A DNA stretch of 64,000 nt from Actinomycetota bacterium (GTDB lineage: Bacteria; Actinomycetota; Acidimicrobiia; Acidimicrobiales; Ilumatobacteraceae), in contig WLIV01000012.1 in the NCBI GenBank assembly GCA_009702045.1, positions 1 to 64,000 on the forward strand. Reading direction: 5' to 3'. Position 1 is the first letter of the stretch. Every line of letters starts with the position of its first letter. Positions 8,410 through 13,315 of the stretch are shown here, piece by piece. The notes under the pieces were generated by a model that was not told the origin of the DNA, searched no databases, and was given only the letters and a program-made list of their open reading frames with translations. The position numbers and the translations under genes are program-made.

Positions 8410-8715
8410 CTGCTCGCCATCCGCAGTGCTCAACGGGCGCGGTTCATGCCAGCGTGTGGCACGAACCGAACCCGTGGGGGCTGGACCGGACACCAGCGGC
8501 ACGAATCGCGCCCGACCTGGCGGCGGCGCGAGAGCGGGTGACGGGAGCCGTCGCTGCGCTCCTCAGGTTGGGAATTCGTTCTGGTCGGGTCCGTGACAAG
8601 GTGCTTCGCGCGAAAAACCTGTTCAGAGGGTCCGGGTGGGTCCGGGTGATGTTGCCGTGTGCCGCTCAGTTGTGGCACAGATATGGCACGCCGAGGGCCT
8701 CGAGTTGGGAGCGTG
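8410..8715. other. gene-free stretch holding a solo copy of the tRNA-linked repeat
   Basis: No credible gene is seen on either strand over 306 bases. At 8531-8564 there is a near-perfect copy (33 of 34 bases) of the core of the 68-bp repeat found next to tRNA-Gly. Short duplications such as GGTCCGGGTG occur at 8630-8650. The stretch lies just beyond the 3' end of the ParE toxin gene. Confidence 0.6.
8531..8564. repeat. solo copy of 68-bp-repeat core
   Basis: This 34-base segment begins AGAGCGGGTGACGGGA and ends CCGTCGCTGCGCTCCTC. It differs at one base from the matching segment of each 68-bp tandem unit at 9463-9666. Like those units it starts with the sequence of the tRNA-Gly 3' end. It is in the same orientation as the array, with the toxin-antitoxin genes lying between. 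Confidence 0.75.
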
Positions 8716-9042
8716 TTAGGCGTCGTCCGTCACGTCGGCAAGGATGCTGGGCAGGTCTTGCGAATCGGCGAGCAGCCGGACGATATCGACCTGGTCAGTG
8801 GTGACGAAGTAGAACCAGCTGCACGGAAAACCGACGACACGGCGGACTCTGAGTCCCGGGATGCCGCACACCACGCCGACGCGGGGCGATCCGGCGCCAG
8901 GCATGCGTGTGATCGCGCCGAGTGCTGCCACAGCTGCATCGAAGAACCGTTCACCGAGGGCGTCGCCGCCCTCACGACGGTAGTAGTGGGTTCGAGCGAC
9001 GAGGTCGGCCTCGGCCAGAGGCCGGAGCAGTGCAATCGTCAC
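8716..9042 (-). CDS. parE: ParE-type toxin of a type II toxin-antitoxin pair
   Basis: A 108-residue basic protein of the RelE/ParE fold. The helix D-L-V-A-R-T-H-Y-Y-R-R-E-G-G-D-A-L-G-E-R-F, the region GIPGLRVRRVVGFPC, and the closing strands WFYFVTTDQVDIVRLLAD-S-Q-D match the ParE pattern. The GTG start overlaps the antitoxin stop by four bases (GTGA), so translation is coupled to the antitoxin. Family members inhibit gyrase or cleave mRNA; this copy's target is not known. A longer upstream in-frame extension is rejected because it would overlap parD. Confidence 0.85.
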   Translation of the reverse strand: MTIALLRPLAEADLVARTHYYRREGGDALGERFFDAAVAALGAITRMPGAGSPRVGVVCGIPGLRVRRVVGFPCSWFYFVTTDQVDIVRLLADSQDLPSILADVTDDA

Positions 9043-9290
9043 GCGCTGGCGCCGAATGCATCCGTACGGAGTGCAGCGACCACGTCGTCGGTGACAACGC
9101 GCCCGGCGCCCGATGCAAGCCCATCCGCGATCAGGTCGCGGAGGTGCTGGGCGGATTGCTCGTGCTGATCGCGTCGGATGAGGTCGCGCAGGTATTCGCT
9201 GGTGTTTCCGTAGCTGCCGTCGCGGACTCGTGCATCGATGTAGTCGCGCAACGATTCGGGCAGGGCGAAGCTCATCGTGTTGCGGCTCAT
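9039..9290 (-). CDS. parD: ParD-type antitoxin
   Basis: An 83-residue antitoxin with an N-terminal ribbon-helix-helix (MSFALPESLRDYIDARV, then YGNTSEYLRDLIRRDQ) and a charged C-terminal tail that should wrap the toxin. Antitoxin first, then toxin with a four-base overlap, is the standard order. The promoter is readable on the minus strand: TTGACA (-35), a 17-base spacer, CAGAAT (9297-9302), then six bases to the ATG, with no ribosome-binding site. The pair probably represses itself through the RHH domain. Confidence 0.87.
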   Translation of the reverse strand: MSRNTMSFALPESLRDYIDARVRDGSYGNTSEYLRDLIRRDQHEQSAQHLRDLIADGLASGAGRVVTDDVVAALRTDAFGASA

Positions 9291-9462
9291 CCTGAGATTC
9301 TGTACCTGCTATCAACTGTTGTCAACGCGGCATCGATTGCGATTCGCGCTCCACGAAGGTTGCTCAACGGCGTGGGTTTGGCGACGGTGTTGCGCGGTCA
9401 TGGCTTGCAGGCGAGCGTCGTCCGCCCAGGACACAAAGGGGCTCTCCGCGTGGTGGTGGGGA
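9291..9462. other. parD upstream region up to the tandem repeats
   Basis: This 172-base stretch carries the parD promoter at its left end. The rest shows no gene, tRNA or obvious hairpin. The repeat array begins at 9463. Confidence 0.5.
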
Positions 9463-9666
9463 CGGGTGACGGGATCCGTCGCTGCGCTCCTCCCGATTCC
9501 GTGCGCCGTGCGTGCGGCTGCGCCGCGAGAGCGGGTGACGGGATCCGTCGCTGCGCTCCTCCCGATTCCGGGCGCCGTGCGTGCGGCTGCGCCGCAGAGC
9601 GGGTGACGGGATCCGTCGCTGCGCTCCTCCCGATTCCGGGCGCCGTGCGTGCGGCTGCGCCGCAGA
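9463..9666. repeat. three 68-bp tandem repeats abutting tRNA-Gly
   Basis: Units run 9463-9530, 9531-9598 and 9599-9666, each exactly 68 bases and nearly identical; the first has a few changes at its ends and a T for G in the middle. Each begins GCGGGTGACGGGA, which is also the first 13 bases of the tRNA-Gly gene read on the plus strand, so the tRNA 3' end is in effect a truncated fourth unit. Inside each unit are two short inverted repeats, GACGG-GAT-CCGTC and GCGGC-TGC-GCCGC, so the transcript downstream of the tRNA would fold into a series of hairpins. There are no spacers, so this is not a CRISPR array. Confidence 0.9.
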
Positions 9667-9736
9667 GCGGGTGACGGGAATCGAACCCGCGTTCTCAGCT
9701 TGGGAAGCTGATGTTCTGCCTCTGAACTACACCCGC
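9666..9736 (-). tRNA. tRNA-Gly (anticodon CCC)
   Basis: The 71-base cloverleaf is complete. Acceptor GCGGGTG pairs with CACCCGC; the D stem is GTTC/GAAC; the anticodon stem TCAGC/GCTGA has loop TTCCCAA (anticodon CCC at positions 34-36); the T arm is GCGGG-TTCGAAT-CCCGT. The discriminator is T, as expected for glycine. The CCA end is not encoded. Immediately 3' of the gene lie three tandem copies of a 68-bp unit that starts with the tRNA's own 3' end. Confidence 0.95.
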
Positions 9737-9799
9737 AGAAGTGCCTGAGGTTATCGCTGCGCATCCGGCCCTGCCACCGCGACGTGGGAGGATCTGGGC

Positions 9800-10513
9800 A
9801 TGGCATGGCGGCGTCGGCACGCAGAGTCGGCTGCGGAGCCGGTCGACTTCAGCGGCGACAACCCGCTGCTGCTGGAGTTCCGCGCTCGGCCGGAGCCGAC
9901 ACCGACCGATGTTGAGGCGCTCACCGCCCAGTACGCGTTCGCGATTCCCACTGATCAGGCACTCGCCGCCATCCGGTTGCACTCACCGAACGGCATCGTC
10001 GAGATCGGCGCAGGCACTGGCTACTGGGCTTCGCTGGTGCACGCGCTCGGGGTGCCGGTCACCGCATACGACCCCGCACCGCCCATGTCGCCCGACAACA
10101 AGTGGTTTCACTCGTCGGCCGCGTGGTTCGACGTGCAGCAGGGCGACGAGACCGTGGTAGACCGCCACGGTGACCGCACGCTGCTGATCGTGTGGCCCAC
10201 GCGCGACCAGACATGGCCGGCCGACGCGCTCGATCGCTACTTCGCCGCTGGCGGTGACACGCTGATCTACGTGGGTGAGCGGCCGGGGAACAAGACCGGC
10301 GACTCCCGCTTCCACGCACTGCTGGGCGGCTTTGACCACTGTGTCGCTTGCACCTACGGGGCCCTCGACCTGGCGTGCGTGTGCGGCACCAGACCCATCT
10401 GGCAGCAGCGAGCGCATGTGGCCCTGCCGCACTGGCCCGGTCACCACGACGACCTGTATGTGTACGCCCGGCGCGAAGCCCAGGGAAAAACATTGGCGCG
10501 GCGGGTTCGGTGA
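9800..10513 (+). CDS. class I SAM-dependent methyltransferase-like protein
   Basis: A 237-residue soluble protein. VEIGAGTGYWASLV near residues 62-76 is a good motif I for S-adenosylmethionine binding, followed by an acidic strand end, VTAYDPAPP. The later segment TLLIVWPTRDQTW with DTLIYVGERPG fits the remaining Rossmann strands. The methyl acceptor is unknown, and related eukaryotic and bacterial proteins are poorly characterised. The ATG has GAGGAT six bases upstream. The gene lies just beyond tRNA-Gly, divergent from it. Confidence 0.75.
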   Translation: MAWRRRHAESAAEPVDFSGDNPLLLEFRARPEPTPTDVEALTAQYAFAIPTDQALAAIRLHSPNGIVEIGAGTGYWASLVHALGVPVTAYDPAPPMSPDNKWFHSSAAWFDVQQGDETVVDRHGDRTLLIVWPTRDQTWPADALDRYFAAGGDTLIYVGERPGNKTGDSRFHALLGGFDHCVACTYGALDLACVCGTRPIWQQRAHVALPHWPGHHDDLYVYARREAQGKTLARRVR

Positions 10514-10576: not shown

Positions 10577-13315
10577 GTGTTTCTGTGGCAAATCAAATTC
10601 GTACTCTCCAAGAATGGATTTCGAGCGTGGACGTCAAGGGTGAGTCGGCCCGGGTCCATGCGCCGCGCTCAGCGCAGTCGGCGTCTCCTGATGGCGCTGC
10701 CACTGCTGCTCGCGCTGATGGGTTTGTGTTCGAGGTACATCGGCGCCGCCAGCGCCGATTCCGGAGAGACATCGTCCGGCAGTGACTACCGGGTCGCGCA
10801 GGCCTCGATCTCCGCATCGAACTACCAACAGTGCGGTGTCACCTCCGCCGGTGGGGTCAAGTGCTGGGGCTACGGCGGCGGTGGCCGCCTCGGCGACGGT
10901 ACCGAGAACTCGTCGAGCACCCCTGTCGACGTGGTCGGCCTGTCGGGCAGCGTGCAGGCCATCGCTACGGGGTCCGCCGCCACCTGCGCGCTCACGGCGA
11001 CTGGTGGGGCGCAGTGCTGGGGCAACATCGTGGGCGACGGCAGCGTCAACAACTTCTCGACATCCGCGGTCGACGTGCTCGGGATGACCTCAGGAGTCCG
11101 CCAGATCGACATCGGCGGCGGTTTCACGTGCTTCGTCACGACGTCGTCCGATGTGCAGTGCCTGGGCGAGAACGGGTGGGCCCAACTCGGCGACGGAACC
11201 CAAACGGGCACGAGCACCGTCAGCACGGCGATCCAGGGTCTTGCCGGCAACGTGCGTTCCATCGCCACGATGGCGCAGGCGACGTGCGCGCTGATGCTGG
11301 ACACGACCGTGAAGTGCTGGGGCTACGGCGGCTACGGCCAACTCGGTGACGGCACCTTCGGTATCGATTCGAACAACCCGTACGTCCTGGCACCCACCAC
11401 GGTGACTGGCCTGTCGTCCGTCGTGGCACTCGCCGGCGGTGAGGCCCACATGTGTGCGCTCACCACGGCCGGAGCCGTGAAGTGCTGGGGTTCCGACAGT
11501 TTCGGTCAGTTGGGTGACGGCACCACGAACAACAGCGCAGTGCCCGTCGACGTGGTCGGACTGCAATCGGGAGTGCGCACGATCACAGCTGGCGGCTACG
11601 GAATGTGCGCCCTGCTCTACTCCAACGACGTGCAGTGTTGGGGTCGCAACACCGAGGCGTTCCTCGGTCAGGGTTCGACCAGCGGTCCGGTGTACACGCC
11701 GACCAACGTTCCCGGCCTCAGCGGCACGATCACCGCCGTGACCGCCGGCTTCTACAACGCATGCGCGCTGAACTCGATCGGCGAGCTGCGCTGTTGGGGC
11801 TACCTCGCAGCGGTGGCGACCACGCCGAGCCCCACACTGGTGAGCAACTTCGACGGCGTGCACACCAGGATCGTCACGTCTGGCGCAACCGTGCTGCTGG
11901 CCGGCTACTACCCAACGCTGTTCCAACCGTGGGTCGGCACCAACCCCGTCAACCTCGGCGTGCGGGTGTCCACGGCCGAAGCAGGCACCGTCACCAAAGT
12001 GCTGTTCGCCAAGGACCCCGCCAACTACGGCGCGCACACCGCCGTCGTGTGGGACGCCGGTGGCAATGTGCTGGCGACGCAGAGCTTCGTCAACGAATCG
12101 GGATCGGGTTGGCAGGAAGTGGCCTTGGACACCCCGGCGGTCATCGCTGCCGGTGCCACGTTCACGGTGGGCTACTCGCTGGAGCACACCGGCTACGCGT
12201 ATGGTCCGGCGTTTCCCTCTCTCACCGTCGGGCCACTGACCATCGACACCGGCACCTACGTGTACAGCGGGAACCCCACCGACTACCCCAATGGCAGCGT
12301 GGGCTCGAACTACGGCATCGACTTCGAGTTCATGGCGGGTACCCCGACCACGACGACCACGACGACCACGACGACGGTGCTGGACACGACGACCACGGTG
12401 GTGGACACGACGACCACGACGACGGTGCTCGACACGACGACGACGGTGGTGGACACGACCACGACGACGACCGTTGTGGACACGACCACGACGACGACCG
12501 TGCTCGACACGACGACGACCACCGTGCTCGACACGACGACGACCGTCGCATCGACCACCACGACCACAGCGGCACCCACGACGACGACCGTCGCTCCGAC
12601 AACTACGACCACGACGACCACGGTGGCGCAGTTGCCGCCGCCGCCCACCTCCAATCCGACACCGCCGACGGTCACCACCGCCTCGGCGCCAGTGATCACG
12701 ACGGCGATCGCGACCACCACGACGGTCGCGCCGACCACCTCGACGACCACGACGAGCGTGGAGCCATCGACCACGACCACCACGACACCGCCAGCCCCTG
12801 CCGCGCTCGTCACGCCCGCAGCACAGATCGAAGCAGTCGCCGCGCTCGACTCGCCCTCCGTCACCCCGTCCGAGGTGGCCGCCACGGTGACCAACCTCAT
12901 CGACTCTGGCCTCACCGGTACAGCGGCCACCGACCTGGCCACCAGCGACAAAGTGCTCACCAGCATCGACCCGGCGCAGGCCGAGTCGGTGTTCGCCGCG
13001 ATCCCGGTGTCGTCGTTGAGTCAGGAACAGGTCGACGCCGTGTCGGCCGCCGTGACGAACGCGCCGACCGAAATCAAGAACGCGTTCGAATCCACCATCG
13101 ACGTGTACGGCAGTGGCTTCGACAAGTACGTGCCGGTCGGCTCGAACATCGACGTCTCATCGCGCCGGACACTCGTCGCCGCGGCCGCCGCTGTCACCAG
13201 CATCGCCGCTGCGGCGGCCACGGGTGGCTCCGGCGGCTCTGCTCCGGCCGGGGGTAGCTCTTCTGGAGACTCGGGCGGCTCCGCACCGGCGGGTCGCAAA
13301 CCTGAGGACGCGTGA
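10577..13315 (+). CDS. large secreted RCC1-repeat / DUF4082 surface protein with Thr-rich stalk
   Basis: A 912-residue protein. After a signal peptide (hydrophobic core ALPLLLALMGLC) there are seven RCC1-type blades of about 50 residues, each with a Cys pair in the pattern C-A-L...C-W-G-x-x-x-x-G-Q-L-G-D-G-T. They span residues ~70-430 and are likely one seven-bladed propeller. Residues ~440-590 match DUF4082 (V-N-L-G-V-R-V, W-D-A-G-G-N-V-L-A-T-Q, S-G-W-Q-E-V-A-L). A Thr/Val/Pro-rich stalk of ~150 residues follows, then a helical Ala-rich domain and a Gly/Ser-rich tail. GTG 10577 has AAGGAG four bases upstream; ATG 10658 gives a more normal signal peptide and could be the true start. The small membrane protein 32 bases downstream may be co-transcribed. 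Confidence 0.8.
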   Translation: MFLWQIKFVLSKNGFRAWTSRVSRPGSMRRAQRSRRLLMALPLLLALMGLCSRYIGAASADSGETSSGSDYRVAQASISASNYQQCGVTSAGGVKCWGYGGGGRLGDGTENSSSTPVDVVGLSGSVQAIATGSAATCALTATGGAQCWGNIVGDGSVNNFSTSAVDVLGMTSGVRQIDIGGGFTCFVTTSSDVQCLGENGWAQLGDGTQTGTSTVSTAIQGLAGNVRSIATMAQATCALMLDTTVKCWGYGGYGQLGDGTFGIDSNNPYVLAPTTVTGLSSVVALAGGEAHMCALTTAGAVKCWGSDSFGQLGDGTTNNSAVPVDVVGLQSGVRTITAGGYGMCALLYSNDVQCWGRNTEAFLGQGSTSGPVYTPTNVPGLSGTITAVTAGFYNACALNSIGELRCWGYLAAVATTPSPTLVSNFDGVHTRIVTSGATVLLAGYYPTLFQPWVGTNPVNLGVRVSTAEAGTVTKVLFAKDPANYGAHTAVVWDAGGNVLATQSFVNESGSGWQEVALDTPAVIAAGATFTVGYSLEHTGYAYGPAFPSLTVGPLTIDTGTYVYSGNPTDYPNGSVGSNYGIDFEFMAGTPTTTTTTTTTTVLDTTTTVVDTTTTTTVLDTTTTVVDTTTTTTVVDTTTTTTVLDTTTTTVLDTTTTVASTTTTTAAPTTTTVAPTTTTTTTTVAQLPPPPTSNPTPPTVTTASAPVITTAIATTTTVAPTTSTTTTSVEPSTTTTTTPPAPAALVTPAAQIEAVAALDSPSVTPSEVAATVTNLIDSGLTGTAATDLATSDKVLTSIDPAQAESVFAAIPVSSLSQEQVDAVSAAVTNAPTEIKNAFESTIDVYGSGFDKYVPVGSNIDVSSRRTLVAAAAAVTSIAAAAATGGSGGSAPAGGSSSGDSGGSAPAGRKPEDA
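12340..12790. repeat. low-complexity ACG-rich coding repeat
   Basis: This DNA encodes the Thr-rich stalk of the RCC1 protein. It consists of short iterated ACGACGACC and GTG-CTG/GTG-GAC-ACG tracts encoding poly-Thr blocks separated by V-L-D and V-V-D. Such tracts are prone to slippage, so stalk length may vary between strains. Confidence 0.75.

Follow-up and report, generated by a model that had tools for sequence, protein, structure and literature searches.

An array of tandem units behind the tRNA-Gly(CCC) gene of this actinobacterium (family Ilumatobacteraceae) repeats a near-invariant core, each time followed by a copy of the 3′ end of the tRNA itself. We lean, with some reserve, towards regarding it as a tRNA-anchored repeat of the same kind as E. 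coli tyrT/RtT, with the core as a stem-loop module landing at the T-loop. The initial annotation had described tandem repeats built on this tRNA 3′ end, and these are real. Tandem Repeats Finder gave a period of 68, 3.2 copies and 98% matches at 9463-9679 of the window (the whole stretch of 64,000 nucleotides that was analyzed). A 32-base unit pattern, allowing up to three mismatches, matched four times in the window versus none in 100 dinucleotide-preserving shuffles; the fourth match is a lone partial unit at 8534-8565.

ARAGORN placed the tRNA gene on the minus strand (Table 1), and the array therefore lies on its 3′ (trailer) side. Read on the tRNA strand, the units consist of a hairpin, a spacer, the near-invariant core AATCGGGAGGAGCGNAGCGACGGAT and then the echo, which copies, in direct orientation, the 3′ strands of the T-stem and acceptor stem of the tRNA. 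In unit 1 these are TGCGGCGCAGCCGCA (hairpin), CGCACGGCGCCCGG (spacer), AATCGGGAGGAGCGCAGCGACGGAT (core) and CCCGTCACCCGCTC (echo), the last being the tRNA 3′ end copied from the T-stem onward. The sequence GCGGGTGACGGGA starts at 9531, 9599 and 9667, and ACGGGTGACGGGA stands at 9462 in the outermost copy. This gives spacings of 69, 68 and 68, the longer one arising from a single extra base in the hairpin of unit 3. The units had been described as exactly 68 bases long and as all beginning with the same 13 bases. The first statement is right for two spacings and wrong for one, and the second is right for the copies at 9531 and 9599, while the outermost shares 12 of the 13 bases. The tRNA was correctly seen as a truncated unit: the first partial unit of the array is the 3′ end of tRNA-Gly(CCC), and GCGGGTGACGGGA recurs inside the gene at 9667. 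The assembly is split into 56 contigs, and the count of three copies may therefore reflect the assembly. An Rfam scan of the window matched the tRNA alone. The ParD-like antitoxin gene listed in Table 1 is presumed to be the cargo of a presumed islet. Elsewhere in the window, a 912-aa open reading frame (10577-13315, plus strand) carries CALxxxGxxxCWG-type motifs in repeated form and, at 12345-12615, a repetitive linker rich in Thr; it perhaps encodes a surface protein.

Table 1. Positions in the window of the units behind tRNA-Gly(CCC), of the lone partial unit and of the gene between them.
Feature	Position	Strand	Basis
tRNA-Gly(CCC), which hosts the array; the echoed stretch is the final 14 nt	9665..9736	-	ARAGORN; Rfam RF00005, 69.9 bits
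Unit 1 hairpin, TGCGGC(GCA)GCCGCA, directly adjoining the tRNA	9650..9664	-	sequence
Unit 1 core, ATCGGGAGGAGCGCAGCGACGGAT	9611..9634	-	pattern search
Unit 1 echo of the tRNA 3′ end, CCCGTCACCCGCTC	9597..9610	-	sequence
Unit 2 hairpin	9582..9596	-	sequence
Unit 2 core	9543..9566	-	pattern search
Unit 2 echo, CCCGTCACCCGCTC	9529..9542	-	sequence
Unit 3 hairpin	9513..9528	-	sequence
Unit 3 core	9474..9497	-	pattern search
Unit 3 echo, 11 nt, CCCGTCACCCG	9463..9473	-	sequence
ParD-like antitoxin gene, between the array and the lone unit	9039..9290	-	Pfam PF03693, E 4e-7
Lone partial unit: anticodon-arm-like remnant TTCCCAACCTGAG, GAGCGCAGCGACGGCT and echo CCCGTCACCCGCTC	8532..8574	-	sequence

A search of 100 genomes (this one and relatives) gave matches in 11. 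With up to two mismatches, the 24-base core was found in 19 of 221 family genomes and the reversed-pattern control in none; one match (G253) lies away from tRNAs, so that 18 genomes, from three genera, remain. The other 202 genomes, many of them incomplete assemblies, are without the long core. An order-wide search with a shorter pattern matched 27 of 397 genomes. Among the loci examined, three genomes of one other family (f53) have the core at a tRNA together with an echo; most one-mismatch matches outside the family lie away from tRNAs, as seen in 30 loci taken from the places listed. A scan of named genomes returned 27 stretches, nearly all listed as environmental actinobacterial MAGs. Two MAG records with units (L108 and L131) are labelled Bifidobacterium breve, names that look wrong.

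Loci L001-L204 contain 63 distinct units, counted with a script that scored same-strand tRNAs only. For 50 of them a complete tRNA lies less than 300 bp upstream (26 Gly-CCC, 17 Gly-TCC, 3 Thr, 3 SeC and 1 Met). The core thus stands in the same orientation behind five kinds of tRNA (Gly-CCC, Gly-TCC, Thr-TGT, SeC and Met), in slightly changed form at Met, and a check of both strands at the order-wide loci found no long-core unit with an opposite-strand tRNA alone. The remaining 13 units comprise five next to a tRNA 3′ fragment (for two, on contig C56 of our genome, the tRNA is truly cut, and for three it is interrupted by a contig edge), three in an array with no neighboring tRNA (L052, also record L114 of mtb01), three that lie at most 180 bases from a contig end and two chance matches. 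Repeated duplication at a tRNA, one of the possibilities first raised for this array, is therefore borne out in outline, with 50 units at a complete tRNA, five more at a fragment, and echoes that copy the local 3′ end.

Echoes follow their own tRNA closely. Their mean length is 17.0 nt against the own tRNA and 6.6 nt against the best tRNA for another amino acid, and in 48 of the 50 tRNA-linked units the own-tRNA echo is longer than that of any tRNA in the set for another amino acid. It reaches at least 11 nt in 46 units and at least 15 nt in 37. Two units are without a usable echo: unit 1 of L060, through one mutation, and L072, altogether. Variants in the echo match variants in the tRNA, namely CCCGCC (G006 and G013), CCGGTC (G008), CTCGTC (L064, L108 and L126) and CCCGTCATCC (L091). 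As even small tRNA variants are mirrored, the echoes must either be copied afresh from the tRNA or be under strong selection. At one orthologous site whose flanks are 93-98% identical, G013 has three copies and G006 one. At the loci examined, arrays terminate in an echo, never in a core. The length of the duplicated stretch, from 8 to about 48 nt, is variable, which is unusual for an enzyme-made duplication and counts against an insertion. A clean empty site was not found among 24 genomes of genus g22, where the tRNA-SeC loci without a unit are too diverged around the site, and no transposition event was seen.

We also surveyed the 450 bases downstream of the 3′ end of each of the 45 tRNA genes of our own genome. 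Units follow four of them, Gly(CCC), Gly(TCC) (contig C40), Met and Gly(GCC), with echoes of 15-19 nt and a core that is diverged at Gly(GCC); on contig C56, an array of units lies behind a cut 3′ tRNA-Gly fragment. The inner 16-base motif of the core, GAGGAGCGNAGCGACG, has eight exact sites in this genome, all in such units, including two at the cut tRNA of C56 and one in the lone unit (8549-8564). A different arrangement is found at tRNA-Leu(CAA) (L135, C34:36311-36393), where a 30-nt echo at +37 belongs to a core-less tandem duplication of the 3′ part of the tRNA plus its trailer; plain duplication of a tRNA end thus also occurs in this genome. The remaining direct matches are shorter: those of His(GTG) (13 nt) and Glu(TTC) (10 nt) fall inside the next clustered tRNA gene, and those of Tyr and Val(TAC) are 9 nt long. 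An echo-less stretch resembling the core lies at +306 of Val(TAC). On contig C40, nearly 10 copies of a 180-base repeat form part of a long open frame (L007, 613-2353) close to the tRNA-Gly(TCC) array.

Repeats of tRNA ends are a kind already known from E. coli, where those of tyrT were described in the 1970s; to our knowledge, no origin has been accepted for them. Like the tyrT-tyrV and RtT (RttR, RF00391) repeats of E. coli, Salmonella and Klebsiella, the units described here are tandem repeats behind a tRNA that end in the 3′ end of that tRNA, and vary in copy number. Both also have hairpins, several with GNA-type loops. The tyrT-tyrV-rttR locus of E. coli K-12 carries 19-nt echoes of tRNA-Tyr. 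After tyrT, GGTGAGGAGCGAAGCGACGAAT directly precedes the echo, and the tyrT-tyrV spacer consists of GAGGAGCGAAGCGACG, three bases and the 19-nt echo, with the RttR/RtT repeats adjacent. The core in the window shares these 16 bases, with C for A at a variable position, and is likewise followed by three bases and the echo. Salmonella has the same spacer motif with one mismatch and Klebsiella a changed form. Behind tRNA-Pro of Salmonella, two annotated RtT RNAs carry 18-nt echoes of tRNA-Pro, and a T-run terminator is repeated in each unit, between the tRNA and the echo.

The enterobacterial units differ in being about 169-178 bases long, in having further hairpins and in containing an imperfect inverted copy of the T-arm. 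Within them, the motif is confined to the tyrT-tyrV spacer unit (E. coli, and Salmonella with one mismatch), while the RttR units have other apex stems. Searching our genome with the RtT covariance model (RF00391) gave a best score of 14.6 bits against a gathering threshold of 45, at a place other than the array, and there was no match at 9300-9800 with E up to 1. Convergence on a very stable hairpin could account for the 16 bases shared with E. coli. In Enterobacteria the unit clearly resembles a copy of the T-arm opened in the T-loop (GGTTCGA^insert^ATCC). For the actinobacterial units, the likeness of the left arm to the T-arm 5′ half is weak: the left arm scored 7.06 against GGTTCGA (shuffled, 6.00 +/- 0.22) and GGT-N0-5-CGA occurs in 21 of 63 units (shuffled, 1.65), in both cases among related units that are not independent. 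The longer left-arm pattern GCGGGTTCGA scored 8.03 versus 7.34 +/- 0.26, which is not above the best shuffle. Excerpts of two papers mention a 175-bp change in copy number at an rtT RNA locus of Salmonella (PMC2658671) and an entry of RttR as containing a REP (PMC12306157).

The motif GAGGAGCGNAGCGACG was found in 65 of 396 Actinomycetota genomes (own family included), with 10-35 copies in six of them; its reversed control reached at most 2 per genome among the rows listed. In G867 it precedes a 15-nt echo of tRNA-Ser and a 12-nt echo of tRNA-Glu, and in G898 a 30-nt echo of tRNA-Pro; in this last case it stands before a whole T-arm and not within the T-loop. Among 71 sites at 60 further selected loci, two are near a tRNA and one has an echo (the tRNA-Glu of G867). 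Among another 30 loci, apart from L209 and L211, the Ser (G867) and Pro (G898) echoes were seen, together with one opposite-strand tRNA-Met. Many other sites are dispersed palindromes of the forms GTCATTGC-motif-AAGCAATCTC and GTCATCGC-motif-AAGCGATCTC, whose arms change in step, and further ones look like isolated chance occurrences. The 16-mer thus forms the loop of a large superfamily of repeats, in which the tRNA-linked units may be a branch; alternatively, they may have converged on the same loop. The tie of the unit to tRNA genes that was noted initially stands for the long core in most cases, while the inner 16-base motif does occur widely away from them, in other lineages.

Dispersed palindromes with GAGGAGCGNAGCGACG as loop were seen in G614, G837, G916, G919, G796, G924 and G867. 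Several have co-changing arms such as ATTGC/GCAAT and ATCGC/GCGAT, and ATTCT/AGAAT was seen in G817 and G910. Another repeat, of the form CGGAGGAGCGCAGCGACGGAGCCTCAGAC, has seven dispersed sites in G344; the copies examined are not at tRNAs.

A broader version of our reading is tentative. Pan-bacterial miniature DNA stem-loop elements, with GAGGAGCGNAGCGACG as the inner motif (16-25 bases), would home to tRNA T-loops, where copying of the 3′ end on arrival would let the tRNA survive; members would be the arrays described here, the Ser, Glu and Pro units and E. coli tyrT/RtT, with the dispersed palindromes as a free-living branch. The mover would seemingly be neither a Y1 transposase nor Cas1. 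Like REP/RAYT (IS200/IS605-like) elements, the units are small and palindromic with a conserved motif, and the inner 16-mer is the loop of dispersed palindromes; unlike them, the long core is tied to tRNA ends and not dispersed. A Y1 transposase was detected in 20 of 221 family genomes and in none of the 19 bearers, several of which are incomplete. Integration of the casposon/CRISPR type produces serial units that duplicate a tRNA 3′ end, but the "spacers" here would be one conserved core and not diverse. Cas1 (E up to 0.001) was detected in three of 221 family genomes, two of them over the cut-off, and again in none of the 19 bearers, several of them incomplete. A place of the units among REP/RAYT elements or casposon/CRISPR arrays is not supported, as neither a Y1 (RAYT) transposase nor Cas1 was found in these 19 genomes.

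We consider it improbable that the units are attachment-site scars, left where integrative elements reused tRNA 3′ ends as attB, each unit being an attR remnant after loss of the element. The tRNA-Gly genes do look like a hot spot. On contig C192 of G009 (L053), an orthologue of the window stretch (95.7% over 2.7 kb), tRNA-Gly is cut in the anticodon arm, and the sequence on the far side of the cut aligns at 80% (179 bases) with 8524-8693 of the window, the stretch containing the lone unit. This cut tRNA and the fragment on C56 of our genome (C56:116524-116860) are att-like: each retains a tRNA portion of 42-48 nt that begins in the anticodon arm and is followed by an array. Both are probably integration scars. 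The lone unit at 8532-8574 likewise seems to lie within an old scar, and may be read as a tRNA-Gly integration scar carrying part of the core. A phage-type integrase gene (PF00589, E 2.3e-14) also lies behind a tRNA-Gly(TCC) unit, on contig C381 of G009.

The use of tRNA 3′ ends and the direct repeats are indeed shared with the tRNA attachment sites of prophages and integrative elements. Unlike the scars, however, the units start at the T-loop/T-stem border and not in the anticodon arm, behind an invariant core, and there is no cargo between them; their spacings are mostly 45-73 bases. The two PF00589 genes of our genome are on contigs C13 and C12, and none is on the array contigs C4, C40 and C56. 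The 22-base core had no exact match in IMG/VR, the array had no match in phage records, and in plasmid records all of the matches listed (8 of 177) hit the tRNA part. With 68-69 bases between copies and neither integrase nor cargo, a prophage or ICE attachment site is not supported for the array, and neither is the attachment site suggested initially, if taken in the phage sense. We read tRNA-Gly as a putative integration hot spot with anticodon-arm crossovers that are separate from the units.

A function of the array in trailer RNA appears somewhat less probable still. The array would be co-transcribed with the tRNA, and the units would be processed small RNAs or act in 3′ processing, the two roles that have been proposed for the E. 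coli rtT RNA. RttR/RtT is annotated as RNA in E. coli and Salmonella, and its tandem-GA motif is backed by covariation in the RtT family according to an excerpt of PMC7657543. A GA-framed apex is kept here too. RNAalifold of 51 units gave one hairpin, CGGGAG..GC(GNA)GC..C...TCCCG, with an apex, GCGNAGC, flanked by GA on both sides; GA faces GA, which by our own reading may form tandem sheared G.A pairs. On the kept base, the apex varies between GCGNAGC, GCAAAGC, GGCTCC-GCAA-GGAGCC (a 6-bp stem with a GCAA loop) and a 73-nt form; one 6-nt apex, GCCTGC (L197), does not fit the hairpin.

The outer stem showed no covariation in the 51 units: its left side stays CGGGA and its right side follows the tRNA. 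The one unit that was folded is no more stable than shuffles as RNA (z 0.31 and -0.13 for the two strands), and as DNA the values were -0.64 and -1.41. The series of small hairpins proposed initially can be drawn, but not with more than shuffle-like stability. Given these energies and the uncompensated outer stem, we take the core for a conserved stem-loop, of DNA or possibly RNA, that may be recognized by something, and not for part of a stable folded trailer. No terminator-like site (stem-loop with T-run) or promoter was found at 9300-9850, and a terminator array, also proposed initially, is not supported. A T-run hairpin or long dyad separates the tRNA from the unit at Salmonella tRNA-Pro, L080-L084, L129 and L246; in our genome, tRNA-Met and tRNA-Gly(GCC) are likewise set apart from their units by a long dyad. 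These separations also argue against a trailer RNA, as do the failure of the RtT model in this genome and the absence of the long core from 202/221 family genomes, many of them incomplete.

Plain tandem duplication, in which slippage copied the end of the tRNA along with the trailer, so that the core would be no more than old trailer sequence, agrees with the core-less copy at tRNA-Leu(CAA) and with the varying copy number of the arrays but is quite unlikely, because slippage alone cannot place a near-identical 24-base core behind Gly, Thr, SeC and Met tRNAs of two families, with the local tRNA end each time, and because arrays finish with the echo and not with the core.

Under the tRNA-anchored repeat that we favor, the core would arrive at a tRNA gene as a small DNA module and land at the T-loop. 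Landing would duplicate the tRNA 3′ end, and the copy next to the tRNA body would keep the tRNA whole. The unit would then multiply by slippage or by unequal exchange between the direct copies. We infer that the units are mobile; we know of no protein that moves the core, and we think that any RNA function is secondary.

In the open-licence PMC literature, we found no published description of tRNA-end arrays of Actinobacteria, nor of this form, phylum, range of tRNAs or shared motif. The 16-mer, searched in four forms, was absent from the same literature, and seven papers containing one of four dispersed-repeat strings were judged, by their listing, to be unrelated. The same design and 16-base motif behind Gly, Thr, SeC, Met, Ser, Glu and Pro tRNAs, in a phylum other than that of E. 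coli, suggest a general process that copies tRNA ends. The units collected here form a comparative set for testing the origin, movement and possible function of such repeats.
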